The position numbers and the translations under genes were made by a program. Shown here piece by piece: positions 668 to 62,327 of a stretch of DNA of 64,000 nt. The stretch's first letter is position 1. The number at the start of each line of letters is the position of its first letter. This DNA comes from Volutella citrinella (Eukaryota; Ascomycota; Sordariomycetes; Hypocreales; Nectriaceae): positions 1 to 64,000 of the forward strand of contig JAWZSP010000010.1 in assembly GCA_034401135.1 (NCBI GenBank). The letters run 5' to 3'. The notes below the pieces were generated by a model that worked only from the letters and a program-made list of their open reading frames with translations, ran no database searches and was not told the DNA's origin.

Positions 668-901
668 ATGATTATCATAAAGCTATGTATATTATTATGT
701 CAAAATTTTAATATAATTTTGTTAATATTATTAAGTTTATGGTTTTCGACAGCTCTTACTAAAAACTTTTGAGCTAAGCATATTTTAAAATCTAATGCAG
801 ATCTTATTTCTAAATTCTTTTATGTATTAGAAAATAAAAAATATACTTTTATATTAGTAAGTATTGCTATTACAATATTCATTACCCTAACCCTACCCTA
901 A
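668..901 (+). CDS. Truncated mitochondrial-code ORF running into the telomere
   Basis: From an ATG at 668 an AT-rich frame stays open for 77 codons when TGA is read as Trp (translation table 4); the in-frame TGA follows Lys-Asn-Phe. The frame runs without interruption across the junction at 884, and its last codons and stop (TAA at 899-901) are telomere repeat. The native protein is therefore cut off and its real C terminus is missing. The product is rich in Leu, Ile, Phe and Lys with one hydrophobic stretch near the N terminus. I do not recognise the family. It could be an unassigned or intron-derived mitochondrial ORF. It would not be expressed intact in the nucleus. Confidence 0.45.
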
Positions 902-1030
902 CCCTAACCCTAACCCTAACCCTAACCCTAACCCTAACCCTAACCCTAACCCTAACCCTAACCCTAACCCTAACCCTAACCCTAACCCTAACCCTAACCC
1001 TAACCCTAACCCTAACCCTAACCCTAACCC
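884..1030 (+). repeat. Telomere tract (CCCTAA)n
   Basis: About 24 near-perfect copies of the hexamer CCCTAA on the plus strand, the orientation expected for a left chromosome end, with the G-rich strand running outward. The distal edge has one short unit (CCCTA). A tract of this length is usual for filamentous fungi. It is not terminal in this window, because mitochondrial-type DNA lies beyond it. Confidence 0.97.
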
Positions 1031-1685
1031 TTGCGACGCAAACTCGCTTACTGTCGTGAACGCTTTCCACGGAACCCTAAACCACCCTGTTAAGCCTAAC
1101 TCCAACCCCGAACGTGCCGCCGGCGCGCCCTCCTTCTTCAGCGGTTAGCGGTTAGTTTAGACTCGGTACCACACCCTTCTTAACACCTCAACCCTAGCTC
1201 TTCAACTTTTACTGCCGCCAGCGCCCTTACACACCTCAGAGGTTAGCCCTCTTTAACTCCTCTCTCCTTACCCTCCTCTGCCCTTTCCACCTCACTCTCT
1301 AGTCTTACTACCACTCCCACCCCTTCACTTCTCCTGTCCGTCCAAAAGTCGACGTCGCTGTCTAAAACACCCCAGTGCCACCTACTTTAACACCCTACTT
1401 CTCTCTTAGCTCCTTGTCTCTACCCCCGTCCTGTTTCTACCACTCTTCAACCCCCCCTGCACAACTCTACTAGCACTCTTCACTCTCTTCCACAACACTA
1501 AGCACCCTACGCCTCTGCTCACTGCTCTTCTACAGCTTGTACCGCTGTACACGTTAGGGTTCAACAGGCCAGGCGGTAGGTTGGGGTAGACGCAACCAGC
1601 CTGCTACCTACAGTTAGTCTCCTTGTCCTTAACCCTTACCGCGGCTGCTTACCTCACTCTACACTCCTCAGCCTTGTAGCTCTAC

Positions 1686-9300: not shown

Positions 9301-10467
9301 CGGCATCACCACCTCCTCGTACCAGCACACAAAGACGTCTCGGCGGATCGCCGTCTGGCTGTACGGCTCCGTTACGGGCGTTCGGAATAGCGCGGGGAAG
9401 AAGACCCAGATGAAGGTGTCGACGAGGCCGACCACGCGCCCGAAGCAGTAGTTTGGTATGTTGTGCAGGGGCTGCGCCTTAATACCGTCGGGTCCCTGCA
9501 CCGACTCCGGCACCGGGATGCTGAGGTGCACGTTCTCGACCAGGTTCAGTACAACGTGCGGCTGTGTATACCACTGGATCCCCATCTGCGCGACCGCGAG
9601 CGACACGGGGAAGCTGCAGAGGCTGTCGACATCGTACGTCGACTGTATAGCGCTCTGCTCGCCCTGCTGCTCGCCGTAGTGCGAGTGCATGCACAGATAG
9701 GGCGGCGACGGCTCATGGTCTGTAAGCCCCTCCATGGCTGCCTTACAGGAGCTGCTATGCCGTGTCGGTGCCGTCCCCAGCGTTGCGTTGCGGTACCCTG
9801 GCCGTAAGAGGTCTTGTGCTGGGTCGAGGACGACTGGCAACCGATCCTCACGCCCATTGCTGTTAGATACCCGACCCTCGAGCCTCTTGGCTACATCAAG
9901 CAGCGATGCGCAGCTCGGTTCCGCCCCGAGTGCCTCCGTGGCCTTGTTCAACTGCGACTGGTGGCCGTCTTCATGCTCCCGGCGCGTGCAGCCTACCTCG
10001 CCGGTCCACTCTCGGAATAAGAGTACAGCAGGATCTTCCGGCATTGGCTCCTCCACCGCCTCGCTTCTTCGTTCTGTTATACTCGGGCTGGTCGCGTTGG
10101 AGCTGACGATTGTGTTGAGCCTGGCTGCGCCCGGTTCGACCGTAGGGCTGATGATCCCAGACACGCTCAACGTCTCTCTACCTTGATGATGATCCCGGGC
10201 CATGGTAGCCGCGGCGGTGGGCGAGCTTTGGGAGGGCTTTATCCAGGCATCAAGCGTATGGGACCCCGACCGCCGACCTGACGACGACGGCGGCTGCTCG
10301 GTCTGCTGGCGGGACTGCCGAGGCGTTTGCGTGCCTGCACTCGCCCCCGAACGCGCTGTTCCTTGAGCCGAAGGCGCCGACTGCGGGCTCCAGCCCAGTA
10401 CTGGGTCACTCAATGCACCCACACTACTGCTGGAGGCCTGGGACCGATTGCCTCCGTCTATGTGCAT
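6391..10467 (-). CDS. Large uncharacterised subtelomeric protein, 1358 aa
   Basis: One uninterrupted 4.1-kb ORF. The N-terminal 160 residues are Ser/Gln/Pro-rich and look disordered. From about residue 270 the protein is compositionally normal and probably folded, with recognisable blocks: SLCSFPVSLAVAQMGIQWY, IPNYCFGRVVGLVD, FYITLQPQYLDALWCG and AVDETYLKPESTYIDIG. The C terminus has an acidic run (LLEEEDEDA) and a basic tail (RKQVKQEREEKKRNA), possibly nuclear. I see no Walker motif, RT motif, clear DDE triad or recombinase signature, and do not recognise the family. An intact frame of this length beside a telomere implies recent selection or recent arrival. The AT-hook ORF immediately upstream is in the same reading frame (both starts are multiples of three), separated by one stop codon and 24 bases, so the two could be one spliced or split gene. 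A nucleic-acid role is inference from context only. Confidence 0.75.
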   Translation of the reverse strand: MHIDGGNRSQASSSSVGALSDPVLGWSPQSAPSAQGTARSGASAGTQTPRQSRQQTEQPPSSSGRRSGSHTLDAWIKPSQSSPTAAATMARDHHQGRETLSVSGIISPTVEPGAARLNTIVSSNATSPSITERRSEAVEEPMPEDPAVLLFREWTGEVGCTRREHEDGHQSQLNKATEALGAEPSCASLLDVAKRLEGRVSNSNGREDRLPVVLDPAQDLLRPGYRNATLGTAPTRHSSSCKAAMEGLTDHEPSPPYLCMHSHYGEQQGEQSAIQSTYDVDSLCSFPVSLAVAQMGIQWYTQPHVVLNLVENVHLSIPVPESVQGPDGIKAQPLHNIPNYCFGRVVGLVDTFIWVFFPALFRTPVTEPYSQTAIRRDVFVCWYEEVVMPAMQAAIDDNNILQYIPKTHAIATSDSSAPREALAAGEVKPAEQAEMEDDFGAAGKKRSQPGAGNSGARRKHFYITLQPQYLDALWCGIQYRAAAYSEFEGVRLYMAAKNTKLAWMQPRLDVMLEKWQRHWVQAVDETYLKPESTYIDIGRQCTPAEKGPQGRVLLWRRCCLDKAWRRRLQWSRIQDRRCISEDVKGRKAPITRTTYPFVTLRDAWGMTVTPRPGSWEMENGLVYSQFYDLIKVPFDAAKQYPFQNRHTESMSLDPSYLRDQNNSTKGIHAHQSRVQCAYRLSKLRIHRNIPTCADDPPIQELPEHQFTYGIRSEDRVSLALLRRITELFRADPPLEQPEGLGSEGIVDRPFFSIPSATMARFLRASVNRYCFLFEHIKSQTGLKYSLPETITMAVALRGLRFSYDSSLIGSESVLWSDRWESTRRTRTQEGGTEETKTQREGLGLGKTSKLHGFGWWLPGKFDWNIWRFHSEVGDRLAVGNDLLRQDYKRQWQVLKDIRDVHVRMWQAQSWVGRFQVMENAAAKRVWLEYLHSTVIELFQRDVWRVALKSTKWKTGSDVTDEAASRYPDSDAPNLCYDGLCDLFHDRMSDTSHTWPHLITGNKLRSTEVMDLFHDLFSHSSSHTALGERKGWYSLPFRIAARRSIELITFYFGLVEAQRWYKDLSRLVFLTHWILPWPSSTELIGTTKENKQKDLKRRLMWASIIYIEPTSTSLGFPNPTVAPRKLEDPDVRISVQSSLSRVLAPLCRQRFGGSGWKDDEDNTNSQFHWSTRDLLLSSNQTVHIDALRLGRAVEPYNNGSLFPVVEGGRPPQLRLVSAIRKKTLDELEAVFNKTLEADQARRQRKISMARSSQAVYTSSPTASFPSRHSVAVASESTVSRAGSTGFSQGSICLEEIREQRRLVLEKLLEEEDEDASNTSDGTEGTAFTIQTMDSTGSWRPQKRLRKQVKQEREEKKRNA

Positions 10468-13380: not shown

Positions 13381-14164
13381 CTACGCCTCGTGCTCCTCCT
13401 CTGATGGTACAGAGACTAGGTTCAATTCGCCGTCTTCTGCTGAATGGTTCGCCTTCACAATCGCGGCGGACTCGTCGTCAGCGCCAATACAACCTTCTGC
13501 GATCTGGTAGAACAGTATGCAAAGCCGAGCTGCCTGCATGGATCTCTCCTTCAAAAGCTTTTCCTGCTTGTCTAGCCTTTTTAAACGGCCAAAGTTCTCC
13601 CTATAGCGAGATTCACAGGCATCCAGCTGCTCCAGGACCCGCGTGAAAAGCTCTTCCAGTGGCTCTGGAGCTAATGCTGGCTCCGTATCGTCCGTTTCGT
13701 TCTTCCTGTCTGATGCTTTATCCTCCGACTCAGAACTCTGCTGCAGCCAAGGCACATGCGGGCTTTTAAATAGTTCGGTACACAACCATTACATAGTGCT
13801 GCGTTCCAGTATCACCCTTCTCTATAGCCTTAAATTGCTGTGAAATCGGCAAGCCGCAGGGCAGCCTGCATTGATAGCCTATTGTGGGGTATACACGGGC
13901 CATGTTTAGGATAAATGGGATGGGGTCGGTTGCGGGTGGCGGCGTTGGCCATGTTGCCAATTCGGCTGGGGTCTGGATGATATCTGGGTCTGACTGGAGC
14001 GCCTTCGTAATCTCTTTCCTTTCTGCCACCCGGATGGACCTGTGATGTTGCTTCATGTGCTGCTTAATATGCTTACCGATGTATGCATAACGGCACGTTT
14101 TGCAAAGAACAAATGGAAACTCGGGCAACTTGATAGACCATTGGATTCGCGACTGCATTCGCAC
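13381..14164 (-). CDS. Short OrsD-domain protein with coiled-coil tail
   Basis: Exons 14164-13793 and 13740-13381 join through a 52-bp phase-0 intron (GTAATG...GCTGCAG), giving about 243 aa. Residues 10-110 match the OrsD family (Pfam OrsD, formerly DUF3505), a paired zinc-finger-like module: VLCKTCRYAYIGKHIKQHMKQHH (split here as VLCKTCRYAYIG and KHIKQHMKQHH), then WPTPPPATDPIPFI and GYQCRLPCGLP. The second half is acidic then coiled (LEELFTRVLEQLDACESRYR). Full-length members are followed by a recombinase-like and/or helicase region; this one is short, so it is a truncated relative or a stand-alone DNA-binding protein. It lies 44 bp downstream of the 1520-aa OrsD gene on the same strand. 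Confidence 0.6.
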
Positions 14165-14207
14165 GCAGATACGATGGATTTGCTTCCCTACCTACTACCT
14201 AGCTACC

Positions 14208-17200
14208 TTAGCCTCTCATATTATCCCAAACCATTCGCGACCACCATCTTAACTGCCTCATTATCTCAGAAGCCTCCATACCGCCTACTATAATCTTCTC
14301 CCCTAGCCACACGGCTACCCCCTCCCCCTCAAAATCATTCAAACCCTCATCCGCCATACTCTCCATTAGCTCTATCCGGAACTTGGAATTCTTACAGTGA
14401 AAGAAACCAATAGCGGTATCGTAAGCTTGTCGTCCATACTGGCAGCGGATCCTTACATCTCGCTCCCATTCCCCAGATGCGCTCTGTACCCATGCCTTGC
14501 AAACTTCCCGGGGAAGAGCACAACCTTGACAACCCCCACGAGCCCACATGCCTTCCTCATATATAGCTTCTGCTAACTCTGTCTTTAGGGTCTGCTTTCC
14601 ACCAAACGGGCATTGCCGCAAAGTATGCTCAATCTGTGGTCCTCTTACCCCTCGACCTGCGCAGAAGCTACATTTGCCCGCCCACCAGTCCATCACAGTC
14701 CTCCACTCCGCGACCTCATTACTATCACCCCAGGACATTTCCAGGCTAGGAAGGCCGGAAGGTTGTTCTTCACTAGGACCAGCGGAAATAGAATGGTCCT
14801 GGTCGGCTCGTTGATCTGCCTGGTAAGGACGACGGAGATATTGCCCAAACGCAGTCACAAGTACGTCGAAGACTACAAGGAGCTGTGGTACCCAGGTCTC
14901 TCCATGGGGAACCTTTCGTTCGAACCATTCAACCGCCTGGCTCTCTTTAGTCAGATCCACGTCATTCTTCATAGATATGAAAGTGGTCAATGTCTTGCCG
15001 AGGAGTTGCTCGTCAAACGCACAAAGAGCGGCAATCGCCCTTCGTATGGCTGGCTTGTTACCGCAGAGGCCGTCCGGATCGGCTGCTGACGTGTATTTCT
15101 GCTTCCAACGATTCTTCTTTTCCTCGGTGCTCGCATCAGATACCCGAAGTCCTATGGCTATGTCCTCGCATACCTGATTGGTCTCCGTGCAGAGGCTGCA
15201 GTTACCGCGGGCCCCTACGAATCGGTCAAGGCGTAGAGTCTCTAGCCAACCGAGTAGTCGCCGAGCCACCTCGGAACCTACAGCGGTGCAATCGTCGAGT
15301 TCGTGATCCAACCCCATATCGCCGCAGACGTAACAGAGCTGACAACCAACGTTACACCATTGCTCTAATTGTTCACCTAAAGTCCATAAATTGAGATTCG
15401 CTCGAAATAGGTTCTTATCATCGCTGAACCCAACCCGAGTCCCAAGGTGGTCGAGCACGGCCATTCGCGTAAACATCGCGCTGGAGGTGGCAATGTCACC
15501 CGGGTACCCAAACAGTGGCCAATCATCATCGTTGAGAGATTGATCTGGAACATCTTGATTTTTAAAGCTTAACGGGAGAGTTCGTCTTCGCTTTGGAGGT
15601 GGCGCTGTATCTTTCGGTGGTATAGATGCTTCCGCGAGGGAACGACCCGGAGTGTTTTCTATAGCCTCCGAGGCCGGAGTTCGGTCTGGAGAAGTTGATG
15701 AAGAGGACACCACTACTGGTGTGCTTACCACTCTGTCTCTGCCCCGCTTCTGACCAGTGGTTACCTGCATTTCAGATACTGGTATTCCTGCAGTTGGCAT
15801 CTCTTCCGCCCCCCTGGAGGTGAGTCTAGGTTGGTGCCCTAGGATTCGCTCGCGGTCGCTATGAACCTGGGCATTCACTCTCGGTCTAAGTTTGCTGGGC
15901 AAGTGGAGAAACTCGTGCCACCGGAGGGATGCCCATTCATACAGGTCCAGAAGCTGAGGCTGCATCGTGGTTGGGAACGCTCCATCAAGACCGTAAGTTG
16001 ACCCACGCTGCAAGGGACGATGTCCGCTCTGCCAAGCAAAGACAACGTTTCGATGGGCGTCCTTGCTTCGATCATCGAATCGATTAAACGGCTGGTATAC
16101 CTCACGCACGTGCTTTTCGGTTATACCGATGCAGATCTGCCGAAGAAGTCGAGAGTTTACTGCGAACCCCCAGGCCTTTGTCGTTACCTTTCGAATCACG
16201 CTGGTGAAGCGGCTGGTGCTCCATACCTTGCTGTTGGAAGACACGGTCTGGGTTCGGAAGAGCAGCGGCGAGGAACTCTGACCCGCCTCGCTTGGGCTGA
16301 TAATGCCGCGCTCCCTGTCTAACAAATTGATGAAGGGGCGGATGTAGGTACAATACTTGAAGACGGCTAATGCAAGCTCGGCTGGAAGGAAACGAACGAC
16401 GACGAATTCTCGGTTGGTGGAGCTTTTGGCCTTGTGGTGACGGACCACATAGATAATGTAGCCTTTGTAGACGTAGAGGCCTCTGGGTCCAAGTTCGTCG
16501 TTCTCGACCCAGAGGCTGGAGAGTTCTGGCCATCGTGGCAGCTGGCCGCCAGTCAAGGACATCCCCGTTCCCAAGAGCTCGCGAAAGTCCTCCTCCTTTT
16601 TCATGTATTGGTTGACCTCTGACCAGTTCCAGGAATTCCCTCGCGAGAGACACCCGCTCCGAGCTGTACAAGCTCTCCTGAATAAATCAAGATAGGCCGA
16701 GGTCAGTTCGTTCCTGGGGTCCGTTACGAAAGAGTATCCCCTGTCACAGTTTGCCATGTTGTCTTTGATCTTGAGCAGGTCGATGTCAGGCTCAAGCCCG
16801 AACATCAAATCGTTGCATAGGCGATTGGCCTCTCTGATGAGATATGCGCTCAGGGACCTGAACTTCCCCATAGAGACCTCTGCCCCTTGCCCCCAGCTTA
16901 CCCTCTGGCCGTCGTCGCTCCAGTACAGGAAAATGGATGGCGTATCGTTGCGGGCTGCCACGCACCCGTAGGCACGAAGACTGACAAATTCTTCAAACGT
17001 CGATTGGGATCCCATGACCATGTACCGCCTATGCACCTGCTTGAACCGCTCAAGCTGTTTGAACCGTGGCCGGCGTTCGATTCCTAGAAGAGCATACGGC
17101 CGCAGGGGAAGAGCTCGCTCAAGGAAAAGGAGTCGCTGGATGCATATAAGTCCAGAAAGGTAAGGTGTGTAGGAACGCGCGTTGTGGAAACTGTTGGTTG

Positions 17201-18770
17201 CTTCCGAGAATGCAAGTATACCGCTGAAGTACACAAGCACCGTCGAGCTTGGTTGGCCATCCGTCAACCGTTCCGTACATAGCGCGAGACTCAGGCCGAA
17301 GACGAGCTCGGCAAGGGAGACAAGGGACTCAACTCTTTCGGGCCTTTTGGTGAAGTTCCCTACTCCGTTCTCATCGTCGTCGCTAGGTATGCAAAAAGCA
17401 TCATCACTGTCCTCATCGATGGTGCTGTGCAGGTCGCTGTCGTCGTCATCGTCGTCTTCCCCGTGGAGGTCTCCATAGGCATTTCCATCCATATCCATAT
17501 CCATATCCTCATCCTCGACTCGCATTTCATCCCCACTCGCCTCTTCAGCCCGCTCTTCCGCCTGAGCCACATCCTCGGTAACCAAAGGTAGATTGGCCAG
17601 GTCTTCATGATGCCAAATCTCATCAAGGAAACGATTCAGCTTCTTGTTGAAATGCACGCCAATAAGCCGCTCTCGTTGCTTCGCGTCCATGCGGTATAAA
17701 CGAAAACAGAAGGCCAACGCCTTTTTCAGTAGTAAGCGGTATCTGGTGGTTGATGAGGCATGTTTGACCAGTGTGAACGGCTTGGGGTAAGGCATATTGG
17801 GATGGTTGCTTTTTAGCCAGCAAAGGAGATTGCGACTCGTCCTGTGAACAGTCTCTTCACAGCGGTCCATAACCATATCCACGGCCTTCAAGATTTCATC
17901 GATCTTAATCTCATCTTCGCGCGGGCTGACCAGATCGGTGGAGAGACCAGGGACTCGGGCCACGCTGGCCAGGAGGTACGGCGGCGCATCTGGCCGCCCA
18001 TAGAAACTTAGATAAGGTGTCTGGATAAGGCAACGGTGCAAGCTTCGGTCCCTGTTCCTGTACGTGGTCTCCCACCTCGTTCTCTCCATCCATGGCCGCT
18101 GCTCGGCGTACATGGTCGCCGAGCCGGCCGCTGAGGTTTGCATATCGGCGGCAAGGCCGTGGTTACGCTGGTGCTCGCGTTCCTGCACAGATCTGATCAA
18201 GTCCTGTTGTTCTTGACCAGTCCTGTCTCGACGGCTCAAAGCTGACCGACTCATGTGGCCCACAGGCACCGCCGGTCGGGTCAGTTGGCCATCGCGCTCG
18301 ACAATCCAGTAGACTCGAGACGAGCCAGAGGCCCAAGCTTGCAAGTAAACGTACTCGAAATATGCCTCCATGTCCGCCCGCCTGGTAGATCTCCGCGGGT
18401 GTTGGGGGTACTTGGGCAGGTCTTGGCTGTAATGTTGCAGAATGAGAGTGAGGTTGATGGTGCGATAGCTGCAATGCAGACAGGAAAATCCATCGTAAGA
18501 CCGGAGCCTTTGCTCTTCAGGCGAGCCGTCAACAAGAGGCGCAGCTCCGCTTGGACTTTTCAGCTCTAGCTTAGCCAACACCTTAGAAAGACCTCTCCGC
18601 CGAGATAGGGGGATGCCGTGTTCATCGCGCAGATGATTAGTAGGGTTAGACCCAACGGGGGAAATAGCGTGTCTGCATTTCTTGTCGAAACAGATCAACA
18701 GTCGTGACTTAGGATGGACCCATAAAGAAAGTGACTCGAGAAACTCGGCAGAGGCAGGTACTTGGTCCAT
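14208..18770 (-). CDS. OrsD protein with tyrosine-recombinase-like core, 1520 aa
   Basis: Single ORF. N-terminal OrsD module: a C-x4-C...H-x3-H-like finger near residues 23-45 (ICFDKKCRHAI, NHLRDEH) and a second near 95-115 (GFSCLHCSYRT). An acidic Asp/Glu run at about 415-460 follows. The central region carries, in order, RWPELSSL (Arg about 745), VVRHHKAKS (Lys about 777), RLLRQICIGITEKH (Arg about 877) and SGHRPLQRGSTYG (His about 917, Tyr about 926). Spacing and order fit the R-K-R-H-Y set of tyrosine recombinases, with the usual nine residues from His to Tyr. The last 400 residues are Cys/His-rich (CQLCYVCGDMGLDHELDDC, CSLCTETNQVC, CSFCAGRG, CQGCALPREVC), probably several zinc sites. No helicase motifs. 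It resembles the telomere-linked helicase at 53.7 kb with the helicase removed. The recombinase reading is my inference. Confidence 0.8.
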   Translation of the reverse strand: MDQVPASAEFLESLSLWVHPKSRLLICFDKKCRHAISPVGSNPTNHLRDEHGIPLSRRRGLSKVLAKLELKSPSGAAPLVDGSPEEQRLRSYDGFSCLHCSYRTINLTLILQHYSQDLPKYPQHPRRSTRRADMEAYFEYVYLQAWASGSSRVYWIVERDGQLTRPAVPVGHMSRSALSRRDRTGQEQQDLIRSVQEREHQRNHGLAADMQTSAAGSATMYAEQRPWMERTRWETTYRNRDRSLHRCLIQTPYLSFYGRPDAPPYLLASVARVPGLSTDLVSPREDEIKIDEILKAVDMVMDRCEETVHRTSRNLLCWLKSNHPNMPYPKPFTLVKHASSTTRYRLLLKKALAFCFRLYRMDAKQRERLIGVHFNKKLNRFLDEIWHHEDLANLPLVTEDVAQAEERAEEASGDEMRVEDEDMDMDMDGNAYGDLHGEDDDDDDSDLHSTIDEDSDDAFCIPSDDDENGVGNFTKRPERVESLVSLAELVFGLSLALCTERLTDGQPSSTVLVYFSGILAFSEATNSFHNARSYTPYLSGLICIQRLLFLERALPLRPYALLGIERRPRFKQLERFKQVHRRYMVMGSQSTFEEFVSLRAYGCVAARNDTPSIFLYWSDDGQRVSWGQGAEVSMGKFRSLSAYLIREANRLCNDLMFGLEPDIDLLKIKDNMANCDRGYSFVTDPRNELTSAYLDLFRRACTARSGCLSRGNSWNWSEVNQYMKKEEDFRELLGTGMSLTGGQLPRWPELSSLWVENDELGPRGLYVYKGYIIYVVRHHKAKSSTNREFVVVRFLPAELALAVFKYCTYIRPFINLLDRERGIISPSEAGQSSSPLLFRTQTVSSNSKVWSTSRFTSVIRKVTTKAWGFAVNSRLLRQICIGITEKHVREVYQPFNRFDDRSKDAHRNVVFAWQSGHRPLQRGSTYGLDGAFPTTMQPQLLDLYEWASLRWHEFLHLPSKLRPRVNAQVHSDRERILGHQPRLTSRGAEEMPTAGIPVSEMQVTTGQKRGRDRVVSTPVVVSSSSTSPDRTPASEAIENTPGRSLAEASIPPKDTAPPPKRRRTLPLSFKNQDVPDQSLNDDDWPLFGYPGDIATSSAMFTRMAVLDHLGTRVGFSDDKNLFRANLNLWTLGEQLEQWCNVGCQLCYVCGDMGLDHELDDCTAVGSEVARRLLGWLETLRLDRFVGARGNCSLCTETNQVCEDIAIGLRVSDASTEEKKNRWKQKYTSAADPDGLCGNKPAIRRAIAALCAFDEQLLGKTLTTFISMKNDVDLTKESQAVEWFERKVPHGETWVPQLLVVFDVLVTAFGQYLRRPYQADQRADQDHSISAGPSEEQPSGLPSLEMSWGDSNEVAEWRTVMDWWAGKCSFCAGRGVRGPQIEHTLRQCPFGGKQTLKTELAEAIYEEGMWARGGCQGCALPREVCKAWVQSASGEWERDVRIRCQYGRQAYDTAIGFFHCKNSKFRIELMESMADEGLNDFEGEGVAVWLGEKIIVGGMEASEIMRQLRWWSRMVWDNMRG

Positions 18771-43345: not shown

Positions 43346-45456
43346 CATCCCCTGGGCAGTCGTAGGGCTTATTTTTCGTACCTGCCCCACCGGGCCCGTG
43401 CGAGGACCGCGATACCGCGTCGGTACGCGATCCTAAACATGAACGCGATTACTACGCAGCTACACCAAAAGGCATTCATCCAAAAGATCTGACTCTGAAG
43501 CCTTAGAGCAACATGCGACCGGCACCCGTGACGGGCCCTGTGCCCCCCAAGAGGCCTAGGGCCACCAAGGCCACCAAGGCCACCACAATCCGGGCCCCAA
43601 AGGCAGCCAAAGCATCATCACAACGCCCGATTGACGGCTTCAAATTCCGCCCTTTTCAACCCCGATACAGACCTTTTATTACAATGGACCCTCCTGATGA
43701 AATTGTCGACCTTTTCCGGCTATTTTGCCCGGTTTCCCTTGTTGAAAAATGGGTCAGTTGGACGAACAACTGGGTCGCGCACCTTCAATCTAAAAATCTA
43801 GCCCCAAACGCACGCCTGCGAAGCTGGAAGCCAACAACCGTCGCCGAGGTATACACCTGGCTTGCAATCCTAATTTATATAGGCACACACCGCGAAAAAC
43901 GCGTCGAATCCCACTGGGTGACTCCTATCATCGACGATACCATCCGACCGTTGCACCACATCGTGAAGTGGATGACGTACGCGCGTTTTTGGCTGCTTTT
44001 CCGACACATTCGCATCTTTCCTCCGTTCGAAGACGACAATGACGCTGTTGAGCGCATGCTTTCGCGTGTGTCCGAGTGGTCTGACCACATACAAGAAGTT
44101 TCTGCTACGCTCTCTACGCCTGGCACACATATCGCTGTAGATGAGTGTATGGTCCGCTATACGGGAAGAACGAAGGCAAAAGTGACGATACCTACGAAGC
44201 CTATTCCGATAGGGCTTAAAGTGTGGGTATTGGCGCAAGAGGGCTATTTTCTACGTTGGAGCTATCACATTCCTAGCTGTGCGAGGGCCCGGCCACGAGG
44301 AATTCGAGCTGTCCGCGACTATCAACTTGCAGAGACGCAAGCCGTGGTCCTTGACCTAGTATTACAGCTGCCAATTGCCAACTATCACGTCTTTTTCGAT
44401 AACCTCTTTACGACACCCCAATTACTCAGTGCCTTGCGAGATCACGGCGTCGCAGCTACCGGCACTGTTCGTGTCAATCGCGGTATCCACACACCGTTCG
44501 TCCTAGCAAAAAAGCTAGATAACGAGGGGAAATTGACTTGGCAATACAACGAGCTTCGCTCTGTCGCTACATATAATGAACGGGTACATTAAATTCTTTT
44601 TTTTCCCTAGCTTTTTCCCTACTAATTCTTATTTTCCTAGGTCAACCAGATCGCGTGGAAAGACAACGCCCTTGTGTTATTCTTATCGTCATATTTCACC
44701 GGCACCGAGCTCGAACATGCTACACGACGCAAGCCGACATCAAGCCTCCTTCGGGCACGCCCAATGCAGCAATTTTTCAGTACGGAGCCAGTGAAAGTTG
44801 TATTGCAGCCGTCTATTGGCGTTAAATACAATTTACATATAGGTGCAGTTGATCGGGGCGACCAAATGCGAAGCTATCATGGCTATGATCATACAATTCG
44901 GGGAGGACCTTGGCAAGCCCTAGCCTGGACCTTCCTGATTGATGTGATACTTATCAACACATACATTTTGCAGCAGAAGAAGAAGTCAACCTGGAAGCCT
45001 TATGATTCGCAAGATCAGTGGCGCGATACTATCACAACTAGCCTGATCAAGAAGTTCGCCATGACAGCAGCTTCACGCCAGAGGTTTCAGACGGGGGATC
45101 AATTTACGCCGCTTGACCAGCACAAACACATCAAACGCATAAAATTTAGTCGGTGTGTTGCCTGTCAAGGCAGGCAGCTAGGCGAGGCCTACACTCGAAG
45201 CTCGCAAAGGCAGGCAAAAAAGGCGCCCTTGGGCGAGGCAAGCTGCAACGAGGGCACAGCCCGTAGGAAGGTGGGCAAGCAGACGTGGCACGGGTGCGAT
45301 AAGTGCGATGTAGCAATTTGTAACCGGGGAAATTGCTGGTACTTGTGGCATAGTAAGATTAATAAGTAAATATATGTACCCTTCATCTGTTCAATTTTAA
45401 TTGGCCACATACCCCTGTTGGTACGAAAAATAAGCCCTACGACTGCCCAGGGGATG
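43346..45456 (+). mobile_element. PiggyBac-like DNA transposon, apparently complete
   Basis: A 2.1-kb element bounded by perfect 37-bp terminal inverted repeats: 43346-43382 (starts CATCCCCTGGGCAGTCG) and 45420-45456 (its exact reverse complement, ending CTGCCCAGGGGATG). Inside is one spliced transposase gene with all catalytic residues. The expected TTAA target duplication is not visible directly at either edge, so the true ends may lie slightly outside or inside the repeat. Perfect TIRs and an open frame suggest recent activity. Confidence 0.88.
43513..45369 (+). CDS. PiggyBac transposase
   Basis: Exons 43513-44583 and 44641-45369 (phase 0, intron 57 bp, GTACAT...TTCCTAG), 599 aa. The N terminus is basic and Ala/Lys/Pro-rich. 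The DDE_Tnp_1_7 domain follows (FCPVSLVEKWVSWTNNW onward). The catalytic aspartates of the family are present: HIAVDECMVRYTGRTK, NYHVFFDNLFTTPQLL and IGAVDRGDQMRSY. The C terminus carries the Cys-rich zinc motif typical of piggyBac (CVACQG, CDKCDVAICNRGNCWYLWH). No stops or frameshifts, so the enzyme could be active. Confidence 0.9.
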
Positions 45457-45615: not shown

Positions 45616-47417
45616 GGTTAGGGGTTAATAACCCTGGAGGGGTCGAGCCAGCTATCTTCCTGCTAGAAGAAGCTATCAGCGGCCCTAATAAGGCCAAGAT
45701 AGCTAAGATAGCCTCCCTAGACCTCTCAAATGCCTTCAACTCAACCCCAAGAGCCTCTATGGCTGCAAGCTTGGTTAAATACGCCCCAGCCTTTTATAAG
45801 GCATCTGCCTGGGCCTATAATAAACCCTCAGTCTTAGTCACTCCAACAGGGGCTACCCTAGCCTCTGCAGAAGGGGCCCGTCAAGGCGACCCATTTGGGC
45901 CCTTCCTGTTTTCCCTAGCCTTCCGACCTACCCTAGAGCACCTCCAGAGACAGCTGCCTGATGCAACCTTTATTGCCTACCTAGATGACGTCTATATCCT
46001 TAGGCCAAAGCAGGGGAAGGCCCGGAGCCCTGCCCAGAGCCCTGCCCAAAGCCCTGCCCAAAGCCCTGCCCAAGGCCCTGCCCAAAGCCCTGCCCAAGGC
46101 CCTGAGGAGCCAATTCTAGCCATAGTGGCCCGAGCCTTTAAGGAATCCCCTCTAACTCTAAACCTCTCTAAGAGTAAAGAGTACTGGATAGGAAACCTAA
46201 AAGCAAGAGGCCTAAAAGCCCTTGGCACCTTTATAGGACCTCAAAAGCAAAGAAGAGACTTTCTTTCCAAGAAAATCCAGTCTTTTAAAGAAGCTCTTAG
46301 CTCCTTAGTCGGCCTGCCTAAGCAGTATATCCTTTTACTAGCTAAAGGCAGCCTCCAGCTCCTTCTTAGGCACCTACTTAGACAGCTGGACCTAACAGGC
46401 TTGGAAGGACTGTGGGCAGAGGTCGACTATACAGTCCAACAGCTAATCCTGAGCCTTGCCACCCGGGACCCCTCAGAGCCTGACTTACCTAGCCCAGCTG
46501 CCCAAGACCTTATTTCCCTTCCAGTTAAATCAGGAGGAATAGGCCTTCTAGCTTTCAAAGCTATAGCTAAGGACACCTATCAGGCTGTTAAGCGAAGCAG
46601 CCAGGCGGCCCTTGGAGACATCTACCCAAACCAGGCCTTTTGGCCTATAGAGCCTCCAAAGCGGTCAGCTAAGACTATCCTCTGGGAAAGGAATAGGGAC
46701 TGCCTTCTGAACCTCCAGGCAGCCCTAGAGCCCCAAGCCCAGCAAGCCCTGCTAGAAAATAGCAGCTATCTAGGCCGACAGTGGCTGGTAGCCCTGCCTA
46801 CTCAGAAGCAGCTAATTCTATCAGATTCTGAGACCACAGAAGCTCTTAGAACTAGGCTACTAGTCCCTATCCGACCCTTAGAGACTCCCTGCAGCTTCTG
46901 TGGCAACCTACCTACCTTAGGCCACCAGGACCTTTGCAAGGCCGCTGAAAGAAGGTGGACCAGCCGCCACAACCGAGTTTCCCGTGCAATTATCAACCAA
47001 TTATATAGCCGGGCTAGCTTAGAAGTGGAATCTGAGCCCCTTATCAGCCCTGACCCTTTAGGCCCCCGGGCTGACTTTTCTATCTGCCTGAATGGCAGCC
47101 GGCATTTCTATGACCTCCAGATAGTTGCTATAAGCAAGGCCTCTGCAAAAGAGGATGCTTTTCGCACTCTCAGAGAGGCTGCAGAAGAAAAGGCTAGGAA
47201 ATATAAAGCCCTAGGGCCTTTCTTCCGACCCCTTATTATCTCAGCAAGCGGCCTATTTGAGAAGGAGGCTGCGAGCCTTTATAAGGAAATCCAGAAAGCT
47301 ATAGGACCTACAGCAAGCTTCTGGCTTGACCGGTCTATTAGCTTTATCCTTACTAAAGCAAGAGCCCAGGCAGCTGCCTCTATATCTAGAGAAGCCCCTA
47401 GAAATAGGAACCTTTAG
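45616..47417 (+). CDS. Reverse transcriptase/endonuclease ORF, N-terminally truncated
   Basis: An open frame of about 600 codons to TAG at 47417, with no true start; the first ATG is at 45759. RT motifs: LDLSNAFNS (motif A Asp), GARQGDPFGPFLFSLAF (motif B) and FIAYLDDVYIL (motif C, YLDD). A 12-bp repeat encoding SPAQ follows motif C. The C-terminal part has CSFCGNLPTLGHQDLC (C-x2-C...H-x4-C) and then RADFSICLNGSRHFYDLQIV, matching the CCHC plus D-x12-D layout of the restriction-like endonuclease of early-branching LINEs. The frame is intact throughout, so this copy is dead only by 5' truncation. Confidence 0.82.
46020..46104 (+). repeat. In-frame 12-bp minisatellite inside RT
   Basis: Seven tandem copies of AGCCCTGCCCAR, encoding (S/G)PAQ repeats, directly after the YLDD block. 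Confidence 0.9.
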
Positions 47418-47620: not shown

Positions 47621-47658
47621 CTAACCCTAATCTAACCCCACTCTAACCCTAACCCTAA
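47621..47658 (+). repeat. Interstitial telomere repeats
   Basis: CTAACCCTAATCTAACCCC followed by ACTCTAACCCTAACCCTAA, five to six full or degenerate CCCTAA units, 46.6 kb inside the chromosome end and directly 3' of the LINE. Confidence 0.9.
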
Positions 47659-52405: not shown

Positions 52406-53658
52406 GGCGATGAGAAACAGGCAAAGCAGTCAACCATGAAGCCAGCAACGGGGTAGTTGAGTCCCAGTTATATTTCTCCGACGGAGAATTGTGGAGGCAC
52501 CTACGATTACCGGAGGGACCCCGGCAAATCCGCAGCCAGCCGTTAGCGGCCCAGTTTTGACTCCATTAAAAACAAAGGCTAGCCAGTTGCGAATGCAGTA
52601 CGTTACTCATTTGGGCTCCTTTCGGGCACTGGAGACGCTAGACTGGGCGGGTATTCCACTACCACCCAGGGATGGATTCTTTAGACGTGGCTTATTTTTT
52701 TTTTTTTTTTTTTTAGCAACATGCCGACATCCCACATTCGGTATGGCAAATCCAACCCGAAGAGTTGGAATACTGGAATAAGGGCAAACCCTTGCAGGTC
52801 AGACTATATACTATATTCTCAACGGTCTGGGATCGGCGCTGTGTCGGGCTGCCAACAACCTCCATCCCCTGGGTCCCAAACCCGGGCCCTTACGTAGCCA
52901 TCGGGACGGGGGCGGGACGAAGGATCAGAGCGGCCGCCTAGTCCACAATCCCAATCATCCTTCCCATGTATCTCTCTGCACCTCTTTTCCTTGCTTTCAT
53001 CCTCCCTTGGCATTTACTAGCCGCATCGGTCGCATTTGGCTGTTTCCCTTTCCCTTCCTGCCACTTCCTGCTTGCGTCTTTTTCGGCCGCCATCTCTGTT
53101 CCTTGGCGCGCCCGGTTCTTATGAAAATATGGCTGGTAACAGGAACCGGTCAGAAGTAGTTGCCACGCCTACTCGGCCAGAAGCATGTACAGTCTTGCAA
53201 GAGCTCACAGAGGAGCTGGTCCAGCTCGGTTCCCACAGCAGAATGCTCAACACACTTGCTAGAGTAGTTCCGCAAAGGGATGGAAGTTGCATAAAAGCAC
53301 CGCGACCAGACTTGGCCTGTAGTGAGCCAAACATGTACCTGGATACGCCAGTGGCGGCGGTGCTTGGAGGTATTCCGTTTGAGATTGGCTGCCCAACGGC
53401 CACATCGCAGCAATTTTAGACGTCTATTGCGCAGATTATATCGCGAGGGCGAAGGCACGGTTTGACTGCCCAGCTTCTTTTTAGCCGTCCGCCGCCGTTT
53501 GGGCGCTTCTTCCCGTACTGATTGTTCCGGCTCGCCGCCATCAGTGGCCTCGTTTCGTGAGCGCTTCGTTTAAATTTGGAGAAATTGCCAATCGGAGTTC
53601 ACCGCTGTAAGTAGCTGTCTGGTTGGGCTCTTGGAAGCCAGTGCGGTAGGGCTAACAG
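52406..53658. other. Intergenic, upstream of the helicase gene
   Basis: It contains a run of about 25 T near 52690 and a 127-codon plus-strand ORF (53036-53419) that I do not recognise. The OrsD part expected at the N terminus of the following gene is not found here. Confidence 0.5.
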
Positions 53659-56600
53659 GGAGCCGCGGCTCGTCTATACCGGCTTCCCCGGTCACCTGCG
53701 GGGGCTCCAGGATGCCGAGATCAAGTCGTCGTATCGGCTACCAGCAAGGGGGGAAGACCCGGACCTCGAGCGGATGCTAGACGCGGCCCAAAACGTCCTG
53801 GAGGGCGCCTACAGGCTCTGCAGTGACCGATCGCCGGAGCGCAAAATGACACAGCAGCGGGCGAAGCTGCTCAGCGACTTTGCTGCCGAAGGGCCCGGCA
53901 AAGGGTTAAGGGGTGGCGGCAGGCAGGCGGCCTTTCGCTGCTTCAAGAACCCATCGACGCTGACGACATACTTCAAGAGGATGAAGCAGCTGCTTGCTTA
54001 CTATTACCGAGTCGTCCACCAGGAGGGCGGCCACTTTACGCAAAGGGCAGCCGACGAAGCGCTACCTCGGGACGTCATCGAGCCGACAGGGCACCAGCAG
54101 GAATCCATGGATAAGATCATCGATGCATTGCAGCAACAGGATGATGCAGTGGAGGCGGGGGATGTGGTGAAGGCAGAGGGGCCGCCGAGCATCCAGCTGG
54201 AGCATGCTGTCCGGAAATTCTACATTGCCCTGATCTGTCAGGAGGTCGGGAGTAGACCCTTCCGATCACCCGTGCTCAGCTTCTGTGCTATGCTTAGCCG
54301 TAAGGCCTCAGCTCGAGAGGGCGTAGCCGACGGTGAGTGCGCAGAGCGGCGGCTCTACGGAACCTGGCATGAGCCGGGAAACTTCAACAGCAGCCTCTCG
54401 GCGATGACGTGGACAGCACAGCTGGTCCTCTTCGACTTCGTCTGCTTCCAGAGGCAGGATGACGAAGATGGGATTCCGGATCTCCTAGGGAGGCTCTGTG
54501 GCAAGTACTTCCAGCAGATGGCCGAGACGCCGTTTGGCCACATACTGCAGTGGCGGCTCTATCTCTTCGCGGTCTCGCGGGCGGCCATCGCAAAGAACCA
54601 GGCCCGCTGGTCCCTCGACGGTCGCTCGTTCGACTACATGGGGACCAGGTTGCAGCTAGAACAAGTGTCGCAGATGCTCGTGCCGGAGTTCCGCCGGGCA
54701 CACTCGCTTCTCTACGACAAGCTGCTCTTCGGGGCGACGGACATTACGCCAATCGAGGCGTGGAGGGTGCAGGACGACATCGACTCCGACGGCTACGGCA
54801 ACTCCTGGCTCACAGACGTCCGCAATAGGGAGATACTGCAAGGCGCGCAAGACGCCCTGCTCCGGCAGATCGAGGGAAGGGAAGAGCTACGGAACACATT
54901 CATACGGCGGCGCTACGATGACGACAGCAGGCGTAAGAGCAAGGGAACGAAAATACCGATGACCATAGGGACGAACCGGGTCCTGAAGCGGTCGAGCCGG
55001 ACGGCCCGGGCCTGGCGAACTCGAGAGCGGGACCATTGTCGCTATGCCCAACGGCCATGGCTCTATACGAAGCGCATGTCCAGGAATTCCTACAGCGGAT
55101 GGCGACGCTCATACACATCTCGCCGGCCCCGCCGATGCGGGCACCTGAGCTGCTGTCGATCACATATGCGAACACGGGCCGCCGCCGGAGCATCTTCGTA
55201 TGGGAAAAGGCCGTCATGATCTACGTACGATACCACAAGAGCCAGGAGCAAACCGGCGCCGAGAAGGATAACATCCGGTTCCTGCCTCCAGCTATTGGGG
55301 ATTTGCTTTTGACGTACCTCGCACTTGTGGCACCGCTGCGCCAGGTCTTCCTCCGCCATGGCCAACCAGGGTCGCTATCGTCGCCATACCTCTGGTCCAG
55401 GGTAGGCGGCGAAGTTTGGGGAGACAGTACTGTCTCGTCCTGCCTTCGCAAGGCCTGCGCGCGTGCCGAGGTGCCGCAGTTTCAGGTAGCATGGTGGCGC
55501 CAAGCCGCTGCATCGATCACCAAGGAGAAATTCACGGCGAAAGCGCGGGCCAATTTTGATTTCGAGGCGATCGAGTCGGCGGAGAACATCGAGGACGAAT
55601 CCGACCTCATAGATCTAGCGGAGATGAGCAACCATAGCTACCGCACGTTCAACCATGCCTATGCCGGGGGCACGACACTGACGATGAGCACGCTGCTACA
55701 TCGTGCACATCGTGCACATCGTGCACATCGCGCATCCCGGAGCTGGCGGGACCTCTTCCGCGTTGATCACCTCTTTGCCACGGTCGAGTGCAAGCGCACA
55801 ACGGCAGCGATGGCCGCATCGGACATGCTCCGGGACTGCAAACAGAGGCGGGTCCGCAGGCAGCCGGCACATGCCGAACGCACTCTCACGACTGTCGCCC
55901 GAGCGCTATACCAAGACAATGCCCTTCAGTTAAGGCGACCGGGACAGCTGGCAGGCATGCTCGCAACCTTCGGGCCCGGGCCGGCCGAGCAGGTCATCGT
56001 CGTACTCGCTACAGGGTCCGGCAAGTCGCTCATTGTCCTCGCCGGGGCGGCGCTGCCCGACACCGCGACGACAATATTTATACTGCCGACGGTGGCCCTT
56101 CGCCTCAACATGGTCACCCAACTCCGCAGGCTCGACTTGAAGCATCATGTATGGCAGCCAGGATCGACACGGTCGGCGCCCCTAGTCATCATGTCGGCCG
56201 AGGCTGCCTGTACAGCCAGCTTCCTTGACTATGCCCGCCAACTCGCTGACCAGCAGCGGCTCGATCGCATCGTCATTGACGAGTGTCACCTTACGATCAC
56301 GGCGAGTGCATACAGACAGTGCATGTCGCAGCTTGGCTGGCACGTCCGACAGGTGCGGGCGCAGACGGTCTGGCTTACGGCAACGCTGCCACCGCTGTAC
56401 CAGCCCGCCTTCGAGCAGCATAACAAGCTCGTGCGGCCTCGTATAGTAAGAGAGTCCACGAACCGATCCAATATCCGTTACATGGTACGGCGAGCGACAC
56501 CAGCGGCCGGTACACTATGCCAGCAAGCCGTCGAACTCGTCAGGTCGTGGTGTCGGTCCCAGGAGGGGTCGCGGGAGGCTGAAAAGGATAGGGTCACCCT

Positions 56601-57384
56601 GTACTGCCGGACAAAAGAGCTTGTCGACGAAGTCGCAGATGGCCTTGGCTGTCGGACGATGGTAGGCGGCTCTGGCACGGCGGAGGAGAAGGACGTCATC
56701 CTCCAGGACTGGCTCGGTGCATCTGGCTCGCCCGCCATCGTCGCTACGTCGGCGCTGGGCCCGGGTTTTGATTATGCACATGTGCGGCTCGTGGTCCATG
56801 TCGGTGACCCGGGCGGCATGATAGACTTTGCACAAGAATCGGGCAGAGCTGGCCGTGATGGCCGAGCGGCCGAGTCCATCGTTCTCCTGGGCGCCACCTG
56901 GGAACCCGAACTAGGCAGAGGCCGGTCCGGCGTGGACGCGGATCGCGATGCAATGCAGTTATATCTCACACATAAGCACTGCGCAAGAGGCGTCATGAGC
57001 CAGTTCCTCGATGCGCGGCCCGATTGGATACGTGCTAAGGAGAGAACACTTAGAGAGTGCAAAGCACAAAACAGGGAGTGGATGGAACGATTTGTCGTCT
57101 GTTGGAAGTGCTACCAACCACAGGTCATCTGCCGTGCGGCAGACCCAGAGTATGGTGGGGATAGTAGCTGCCAGTTTCCTGATATGGTCATGCCACTCTG
57201 CTTTGGTGCTTATCGTCGAACTAACCGGACTCGATGGTTCTCCAGGCACTTTGGTAGAAAATTTGCAACTTGCCAGGAATATATGCTCTGGCTCGGTGAG
57301 GCAGCAACGTTAGGTGGTAGGAAGTGTACACATGCAAATAATGTGGCTGCACTCCTGTTGTCTAACTTTGGTCTTTATACCTAG
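53659..57384 (+). CDS. Telomere-linked RecQ-type helicase with recombinase-like domain (5' incomplete)
   Basis: The frame opens at a CTAACAG acceptor (53652-53658) as VYTGFPGHLRGLQDAEI and continues through a proposed 56-bp intron (54933-54988, phase 1). The middle carries a tyrosine-recombinase-like set: MRAPELLSI (Arg, 55138), VRYHKSQ (Lys, 55237), AWWRQAAASITKE (Arg, 55498), SNHSYRTFNHAYA (His 55633, Tyr 55660, nine residues apart). A superfamily 2 RecQ-like helicase follows: ATGSGKS (motif I), VIDECH (II), WLTATLPP (III), TLYCRTKELVDEV, ATSALGPGFDY and QESGRAGRDG (VI). The C terminus is Cys-rich (CWKCYQPQVIC, CQFPDMVMPLC). Such helicases are repeated at fungal chromosome ends. The N-terminal OrsD module is missing, so the gene is truncated or a first exon was not found. 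A CATCGTGCA triplication lies between the two domains. Confidence 0.82.
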
Positions 57385-61259: not shown

Positions 61260-62327
61260 GTGTTGGTCAAAATTAGTGTTTGGGAAAATCTTGGTGTGGA
61301 GAGTGTGGCTGGCAGGTGCCCTGTAGAATGCTGTATCACGTGAAGGTCAAGCACCCCGCAATTGGCCCGGTGTGTCTCAGATTATGTGGTCCTCCATGTC
61401 TTGTCTTTCAGTGAACAGCAAAAACCTCGCAGACCCCTCCTACTCTTCTGTTATTAATTGCCATGTACCCTCAATTGTCGCCTGCCCCTGTAAAAAATAT
61501 TGCTCTCCTCTAAACCCAGGCTATTTCCGCTGTCAATTCTACAAGATGATGCCCTCTTTGCTTTTTCTTGATTACTCATTCACACATCTAAACTTGTCTC
61601 GTCGCGTCTTCTCGTCTTACTCGGGTCGTAATATGCTTCTTTGGGGTTAGGGTGGGGTTAGAAGCCTGGCCTGCCGCTTCGAGCTACTGTGCAGAGAGCA
61701 GCAGGCGCTCGACGGCCGCCAGCCGGGACGTCGAAGCGCTCACAAAGGCGGAGCCGAACCCGTGGGTCAATCGAGCCGGTTGGGCCGCACGCCTCCAGTG
61801 CCTGGACAAGGCACATTTGCGGGCCAGTGCCAGACCCATTACGCCGAAGGAGCCCGGGACCGAGATCCTTTGTTCGGTCCTCTGTTTGTCGGTCCTGGCG
61901 CAGGACCGAACGTTTCCTCCCAGTCCCACCGTTCATCAGTTCGTCCCCCCTGTGAGTCGCTTGTAAGTCCGCGTCTAAGTTTCCCGTTTCCGTGTGTTCG
62001 TTCCATACGGAGTACATTGGGGCACCGTGTATTAGCGCGAGCTCTGACACATGCGGTTTCTATATGCCACTCACATGCGTGTTCCTCCAAAGCCAGACAG
62101 AGAAGGCTGCGGAGAGCGGCGTCAGGAGGGCCAGAATTAGCCCAGATGCAGGGACTAGCTGTGCCATCACGTTTCGATTCATGTGTAGATTGGTTAAAGG
62201 AGCATCAAGGTTTGAGACCGGCGCTGTCTGATGACAGGAAATGCCCGAAGCGACAAGGCTCTAGCTTACGCAGGCAATGGAAAGGGTGGGTTTCTACGAG
62301 AGGCTGGCAGACAAGCAATGTGTCAAT
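61260..62327. other. Intergenic with telomere-like word
   Basis: No gene supported. It contains GGGGTTAGGGTGGGGTTAG at 61644-61662, a degenerate telomere repeat, and a GC-rich stretch at 61680-61960 whose overlapping ORFs in several frames reflect composition rather than genes. Confidence 0.55.

Follow-up and report, generated by a model that had tools for sequence, protein, structure and literature searches.

The window analysed here, the first 64,000 nucleotides of contig JAWZSP010000010.1 (C10 below) from the Nectriaceae fungus Volutella citrinella, forms the left end of that contig, which is 778 kb long, in a genome of 45.1 Mb; the closest protein matches of this genome are to Fusarium and relatives. 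Towards the right of the window lies a gene (Table 1) in which motif mapping, open reading frame (ORF) analysis and a Pfam scan place the Arg-Lys-Arg-His-Tyr (R-K-R-H-Y) motifs of a tyrosine-recombinase-type domain on the + strand, immediately 5' of a RecQ-type helicase core. An earlier note on this DNA had put the four motifs RAPELL, YHKSQ, WWRQ and HSYRTFNHAY N-terminal to the helicase, and all four are where it put them. The gene is probably a truncated member of a fungal family composed of OrsD zinc fingers, a tyrosine-recombinase-type domain and a RecQ helicase. The recombinase-type domain is complete and strongly conserved, and standard databases leave it unannotated. Telomere-linked helicases (TLHs) have so far been regarded as helicases whose role at the ends of fungal chromosomes is uncertain.

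The span from 53659 to 57384 given in the earlier note is not a single ORF and consists of two frames, the upstream one open over 53615-55216 and the downstream one over 54937-57381. The frame change is most plausibly due to a 95-nt intron, selected from five GT-AG candidates there that fit the two frames. This intron is preferred to a frameshift at 54933-55027, which was set aside, because the product predicted after its removal is collinear with the uninterrupted ORF of a relative at another locus (L012), the two aligning gap-free in a comparison by eye. A second, partial copy of the gene at C10:185-195 kb (L009, 95% DNA identity) has the same intron donor and acceptor, with a 1-nt gap of its own just after and another frame break further upstream. 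Between the window copy and L009, dN/dS is 0.21 (424 codons), 0.33 (58) and 0.41 (321), so that purifying selection acted on the lineage during at least some of the period after the two copies diverged, though L009 is broken. The fusion cannot be put down to the predicted splicing, because two further recombinase-RecQ ORFs on C10, of 1364 and 1134 aa (the latter at C10:656699-660100), are uninterrupted. The window protein carries SF2 helicase motifs including QExGRAGRDG, placing it among the RecQ helicases, and a profile of one of our alignments (A2) matched the Bloom helicase at E 9.7e-39.

Table 1. Positions, strands and supporting evidence for features of the 64,000-nt window
Feature	Position	Strand	Evidence or remark
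Exon 1, N-terminal and core-binding-like part of recombinase region	53645..54932	+	frame open 53615-55216; B profile 1-248 match
Proposed 95-nt intron (GTAAGA ... CTCGAGAG; ending GAGAG)	54933..55027	+	spliced product collinear with L012 ORF
Exon 2, recombinase catalytic domain, RecQ helicase and Cys-containing tail	55028..57384	+	ORF 55036-57384; B profile 244-534; DEAD, Helicase_C
Box I RAPELL, predicted catalytic Arg R462 (spliced protein)	55138..55155	+	R in 115/118 B rows, 2 gaps, 1 Q
YHKSQ, predicted catalytic Lys K495	55231..55245	+	K in 113/118 B rows, 2 gaps, 3 substitutions
WWRQ, box II Arg R582	55492..55503	+	R in 109/118 B rows, 6 gaps, 3 substitutions
HSYRTFNHAY, His H627 and candidate nucleophile Tyr Y636	55633..55662	+	H 108, Y 109 of 118 B rows, 7 gaps each
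9-bp tandem repeat, HRA expansion between Tyr and last domain helix	55698..55734	+	gap in 3 other B rows of alignment A3
RecQ-type helicase core	55987..56862	+	Pfam PF00270, PF00271
Helicase motifs TGSGKS, DECH, QESGRAGRDG	56011-56028, 56278-56289, 56833-56862	+	
1520-aa helicase-free relative, family A	14208..18770	-	zinc-finger-like N-terminus; R746 K780 R877 H917 Y926
OrsD fragment directly downstream of 1520-aa gene, start of second broken family gene	13769..14191	-	PF12013 at 13865-14125; similar to L010 ORFs
Terminal motif copy of OrsD-recombinase units, 5' of weak relic at 61.4 kb	61439..61488	+	
Weak relic of family gene just inside terminus copy	61592..61963	+	phmmer E 7.2e-5 to residues 214-258 of 664-aa L010 ORF
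Telomere repeat array (CCCTAA)n	884..1031		

Homologues were sorted into group A, like the 1520-aa helicase-free protein of the same window, group B, like the window helicase, group C, like the 1134-aa ORF, and group D, made up of the 1364-aa ORF and the second half of protein P0008. The best 120 of 164 (A) and 120 of 155 (B) and all 109 (C) matches were taken from protein searches that scored only candidates sharing most words, giving 119 A, 118 B and 91 C homologues, the last being 91 of 106 new rows after a length filter. The five residues occur in order, and the candidate nucleophile is nearly invariant, with Tyr in 109 of 118 B sequences (7 gaps, 1 Phe, 1 Ser), 111 of 119 A sequences (7 gaps, 1 Arg) and 87 of 91 C sequences (4 gaps, no substitution); the free variation that the earlier note had held would speak against its idea is not seen. 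For R, K, R, H and Y in turn, the counts are 118, 118, 118, 115 and 111 of 119 in A, and 90, 89, 86, 87 and 87 of 91 in C, where the remainder are gaps and the sampled rows have 25-75% identity to the reference. Complete pentads are present in 102/118 B, 109/119 A and 83/91 C sequences, and the incomplete rows (16, 10 and 8) hold a substitution in 6, 1 and 0 cases and otherwise gaps only. Among helicase-matching non-redundant B, C and D rows the pentad is complete in 80 of 83, the exceptions being P0008 (a gene model without box I), P0134 (Tyr to Phe) and P0344 (gaps). In the joint alignment (148 of 333 rows, after a cut to 70% identity and with a minimum length of 430 aa for domain pieces), the pentad columns all rank ninth or higher in conservation among the 435 well-filled columns (hypergeometric P ~1e-9). 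A smaller alignment, with 12 sequences from the four groups, has R, E, R, K, R, W, R, H, Y and S as its invariant columns. His and Tyr are offset by nine in all 144 rows that have both, as in E. coli XerD; the nine residues reported earlier between them hold as an offset, the residues in between numbering eight. The same pattern had been claimed for the 1520-aa protein and is found there, in what is a helicase-free sister clade.

Two separately modelled relatives match the tyrosine recombinase/topoisomerase IB catalytic-domain fold, the structural match on which the earlier note had staked its proposal, and recombinases outscore topoisomerase IB in both models. The structure alignments took in 65 of 120 A proteins and 57 of 120 B proteins; protelomerase and Ndc10 are among the matches of A and not in the B list, where absence is no test. 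K495 is flanked on both sides by strands in the structure model, and the residue register is shared with XerD in the alignment. The modelled fold, together with a pentad that is nearly invariant in four clades, is almost certainly real. At the sequence level, hhalign against a six-sequence Xer alignment gave E values of 0.33 (A), 0.023 (B) and 0.22 (C), weak singly, and 0.0048 for the joint set; against Cre alone the values were 0.62, 0.081, 0.26 and 0.21, respectively. A PHROGs search returned weak unknown families only, NCBIfam gave no match, and Phage_integrase (PF00589) matched neither the organism's own genome (positive control 14/14) nor the Pfam-scanned proteins. Proof of a recombinase relationship from sequence alone failed, as PDB sequences, PHROGs and NCBIfam lent it no support.

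In our family survey, groups B and C have 45 rows each, and a helicase follows the recombinase-type domain in 42 and 38 of these, respectively, in both D rows and in 2 of 56 A rows; the two A rows (P0003 and P0008) are apparent run-on gene models in which an A-type recombinase continues into the following C- or D-type gene. The domain is fused to RecQ in three of the four clades. The earlier proposal that TLHs descend from, or still are, recombinase-helicase fusions is partly supported by these clades, the window copy itself being truncated. In a quick tree of 72 of the 148 rows of the joint alignment, A, B, C and D each form one side of a branch (SH-aLRT 99-100); because the tree is unrooted, gain and loss of the helicase are indistinguishable in it. 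Three B relatives are named in their source as telomere-associated recQ-like helicases, P0148 and P0205 with the full pentad and P0130 with R and K and gaps elsewhere. One full OrsD-recombinase-RecQ protein, P0275, is filed under the bacterium Blastochloris viridis (from a metagenome-assembled genome) and is likely fungal contamination.

Relatives are concentrated on a single small contig and close to the ends of contigs. C10, which from its size and content is probably an accessory chromosome, has 19 of the 23 OrsD matches in the genome. Elsewhere, a stop-filled relative is ~13 kb from the TTAGGG end of C9, a stop-filled D copy is ~13 kb from an end of C2 that has no telomere array, and D fragments are 17 kb from the C4 end and 29 kb from the C11 end, both with arrays; four more lie 19-94 kb from the C5 end, where an array is absent, and one lies 587 kb inside C1. 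The stop-rich copies look like products of repeat-induced point mutation. Same-strand family neighbours recur, as seen in the OrsD fragment after the 1520-aa gene and in a trio at C10:624.4-635.3 kb (L010/L011) of a 1364-aa recombinase-RecQ gene, a 1212-aa A-type OrsD-recombinase gene and a 664-aa OrsD gene that stops short of box I; the trio is reminiscent of recombinase arrays.

Some of these genes are associated with a repeated end. A 50-bp terminus (CCTACTCTTC...CCTGCCCC) is present just 5' of PF12013 matches at 99.5, 115.1, 266.4, 599.8 and 670.1 kb of C10, with outer flanks unrelated to one another, and a genome search for its 33-bp core with no more than 3 mismatches gives eight occurrences, all on C10, against 0 for the reversed control. 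Three ~18.5-kb units start at the terminus (C10:266.4-285 kb, 99.6-80.8 kb on the - strand, and 599.8-618.4 kb), and are 99% identical as read through for 12 kb and then sampled at three points. The gene closest to family C is the first inside the sharp repeated end, as a mobile element would look. Two of the three units have an inverted terminus copy near the far end, which is not taken as the right end of the unit: in copies 2 and 3 the shared sequence extends past it, and copy 1 is without it. In the window, 61439-61643 is a 79% DNA match to the start of the repeated unit.

Xer-type recombinases (XerH, XerA, XerD) and Cre are like the window family in catalytic-domain fold, R-K-R-H-Y order and H-Y offset of nine; unlike them, the family has OrsD and RecQ parts fused to the domain and the His of the HxxR motif replaced, and a sequence family match to them is undetectable. 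Fungal TLH, TAH and UTASa genes have the RecQ core, OrsD domain and subtelomeric copies in common with the family, whereas the window copy is not telomere-adjacent and is without the OrsD domain that many relatives and L009 have. In Starships, a tyrosine-recombinase-type gene is the first gene inside the sharp end. Relatives of the window gene likewise stand first inside the sharp end of a large unit; they differ from the DUF3435 captain in their OrsD and RecQ parts. No PF11917/DUF3435 match is listed for the Pfam-scanned proteins, and a genome search gave 0, its control being also silent. Cryptons, like the window family, are tyrosine-recombinase DNA elements of fungi, known also in F. oxysporum; according to PMC3212892, the fungal ones carry GCR1_C, and the word helicase does not appear in its main text. 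GCR1_C is not among the Pfam matches of the scanned window and family proteins, which in this respect do not qualify as fungal Cryptons. In two TLH papers, those of U. maydis are described as RecQ-like, an adjacent element carrying OrsD (PMC10532341), and those of F. oxysporum as frequent neighbours of telomeric retrotransposons (PMC12857005); the word recombinase is absent from the main text of both. Openly licensed PMC text searched does not describe a recombinase domain for TLH, TAH or UTASa. Neither 'telomere-linked helicase' with 'tyrosine recombinase', nor any four of OrsD, DUF3505, tyrosine recombinase, helicase and fungal, occur together in the openly licensed PMC papers searched, subscription papers and preprints being mostly outside the search. 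To our knowledge, a recombinase-RecQ fusion in these helicases has not been reported before, the subscription literature lying outside our search.

The conserved recombinase-type domain suggests a mobile DNA element as the source of these helicases, which may be its enzymes still or descend from them. The family is likely catalytic, now or in the past. Under this scenario, OrsD and the core-binding part would choose and bind a specific DNA site, the Tyr would attack the DNA to form a 3'-phosphotyrosyl link, strand exchange would pass through a Holliday junction, and the RecQ motor, being part of the same polypeptide, may remodel that junction or open and work on end-proximal chromatin or DNA. 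The family may thereby act, or have acted, as the integrase of repeated units accumulating at chromosome ends and on accessory chromosomes. That it is the integrase of a mobile element we favour with some reserve, and the composition of the family combined with this predicted role is likely the best explanation overall. A wider proposal is that large tyrosine-recombinase elements form an unrecognised superfamily whose integrase-helicase fusions are the TLHs, the elements homing to chromosome ends and accessory chromosomes, with helicase-free sister recombinases alongside and with RecQ processing the Holliday junction made by the recombinase or the chromosome end; this is tentative, and we would give it slightly less than an even chance. 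If the recombinase works, it would provide a testable cause for the copy number of TLHs, for the way they have spread to small extra chromosomes and for what they do on telomere failure, and the physical union of recombinase and RecQ helicase would represent a new kind of enzyme. The finding also makes sense of a long stretch, so far without annotation, that many fungal proteins share.

Several results limit these readings. The window gene was described earlier as telomere-linked, yet it is ~53 kb from the (CCCTAA)n array and not beside the telomere as TLHs are. Homology with L009 begins at 53644, and L009 continues in the same frame for at least ~170 codons further upstream through an OrsD-matching region (with one stop there); the window sequence has no such in-frame OrsD continuation beyond 53644, and because of this the window copy is read as N-terminally truncated, its OrsD part lost 5' of that point. 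It is itself probably a relic. No terminus of the kind described above was found beside it. The 18.5-kb units start with a broken OrsD-recombinase gene, the catalytic half lacking in the copy read, and such units would have moved only with outside help or before the damage. The N-terminal half gave no signal against the same Xer set (E 0.49), and a profile of 12 catalytic domains had 0 matches to PDB sequences at E 10. Finally, the canonical HxxR His, at position -3 of the box II Arg, is replaced by Arg or Gln in A, by Ser in C and mostly by Ala (57) or Ser (48 of 118) in B, unlike in an integrase proper. Topoisomerase IB has Lys at the position of this His. Because of these two points, the claim is kept to superfamily membership with recombinase-like working, and does not extend to a named integrase family.

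A pentad without the HxxR His is of the kind found in topoisomerase IB, and for this reason the main rival is a topoisomerase-IB-like relaxase, or a telomere-resolving (protelomerase-like) host enzyme, with RecQ relieving or processing subtelomeric DNA. We regard this as unlikely, given the better scores of recombinases in both models and a multi-copy, decayed and C10-rich occurrence that is unlike a host gene. Slightly less probable again is a recombinase domesticated for DNA binding only, as in Ndc10, with the helicase as the working part: in such domains the Tyr and the second Arg are lost, whereas both are nearly invariant here. A chance motif in an unrelated helical domain would suit the finding that, in the searched libraries, known recombinases gave no match by sequence, but it is very improbable in view of the five-residue conservation in four clades, the fold match in two models and the XerD residue register.

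The window has other features of note. A DDE_Tnp_1_7 transposase ORF is at 43513-44592, and a reverse-transcriptase-like ORF at 45759-47417, with RVT_1 just below the cut-off, is followed by a short telomere-like run at 47621-47652. A 1358-aa ORF on the - strand (6391-10467) has zero Pfam or NCBIfam matches. Positions 1-883, which abut the telomere array, are AT-rich and mitochondrial-looking, with tRNA-Ala and tRNA-Phe in the first 336 bases; the boundary is either an assembly join or a real mitochondrial-telomere junction.
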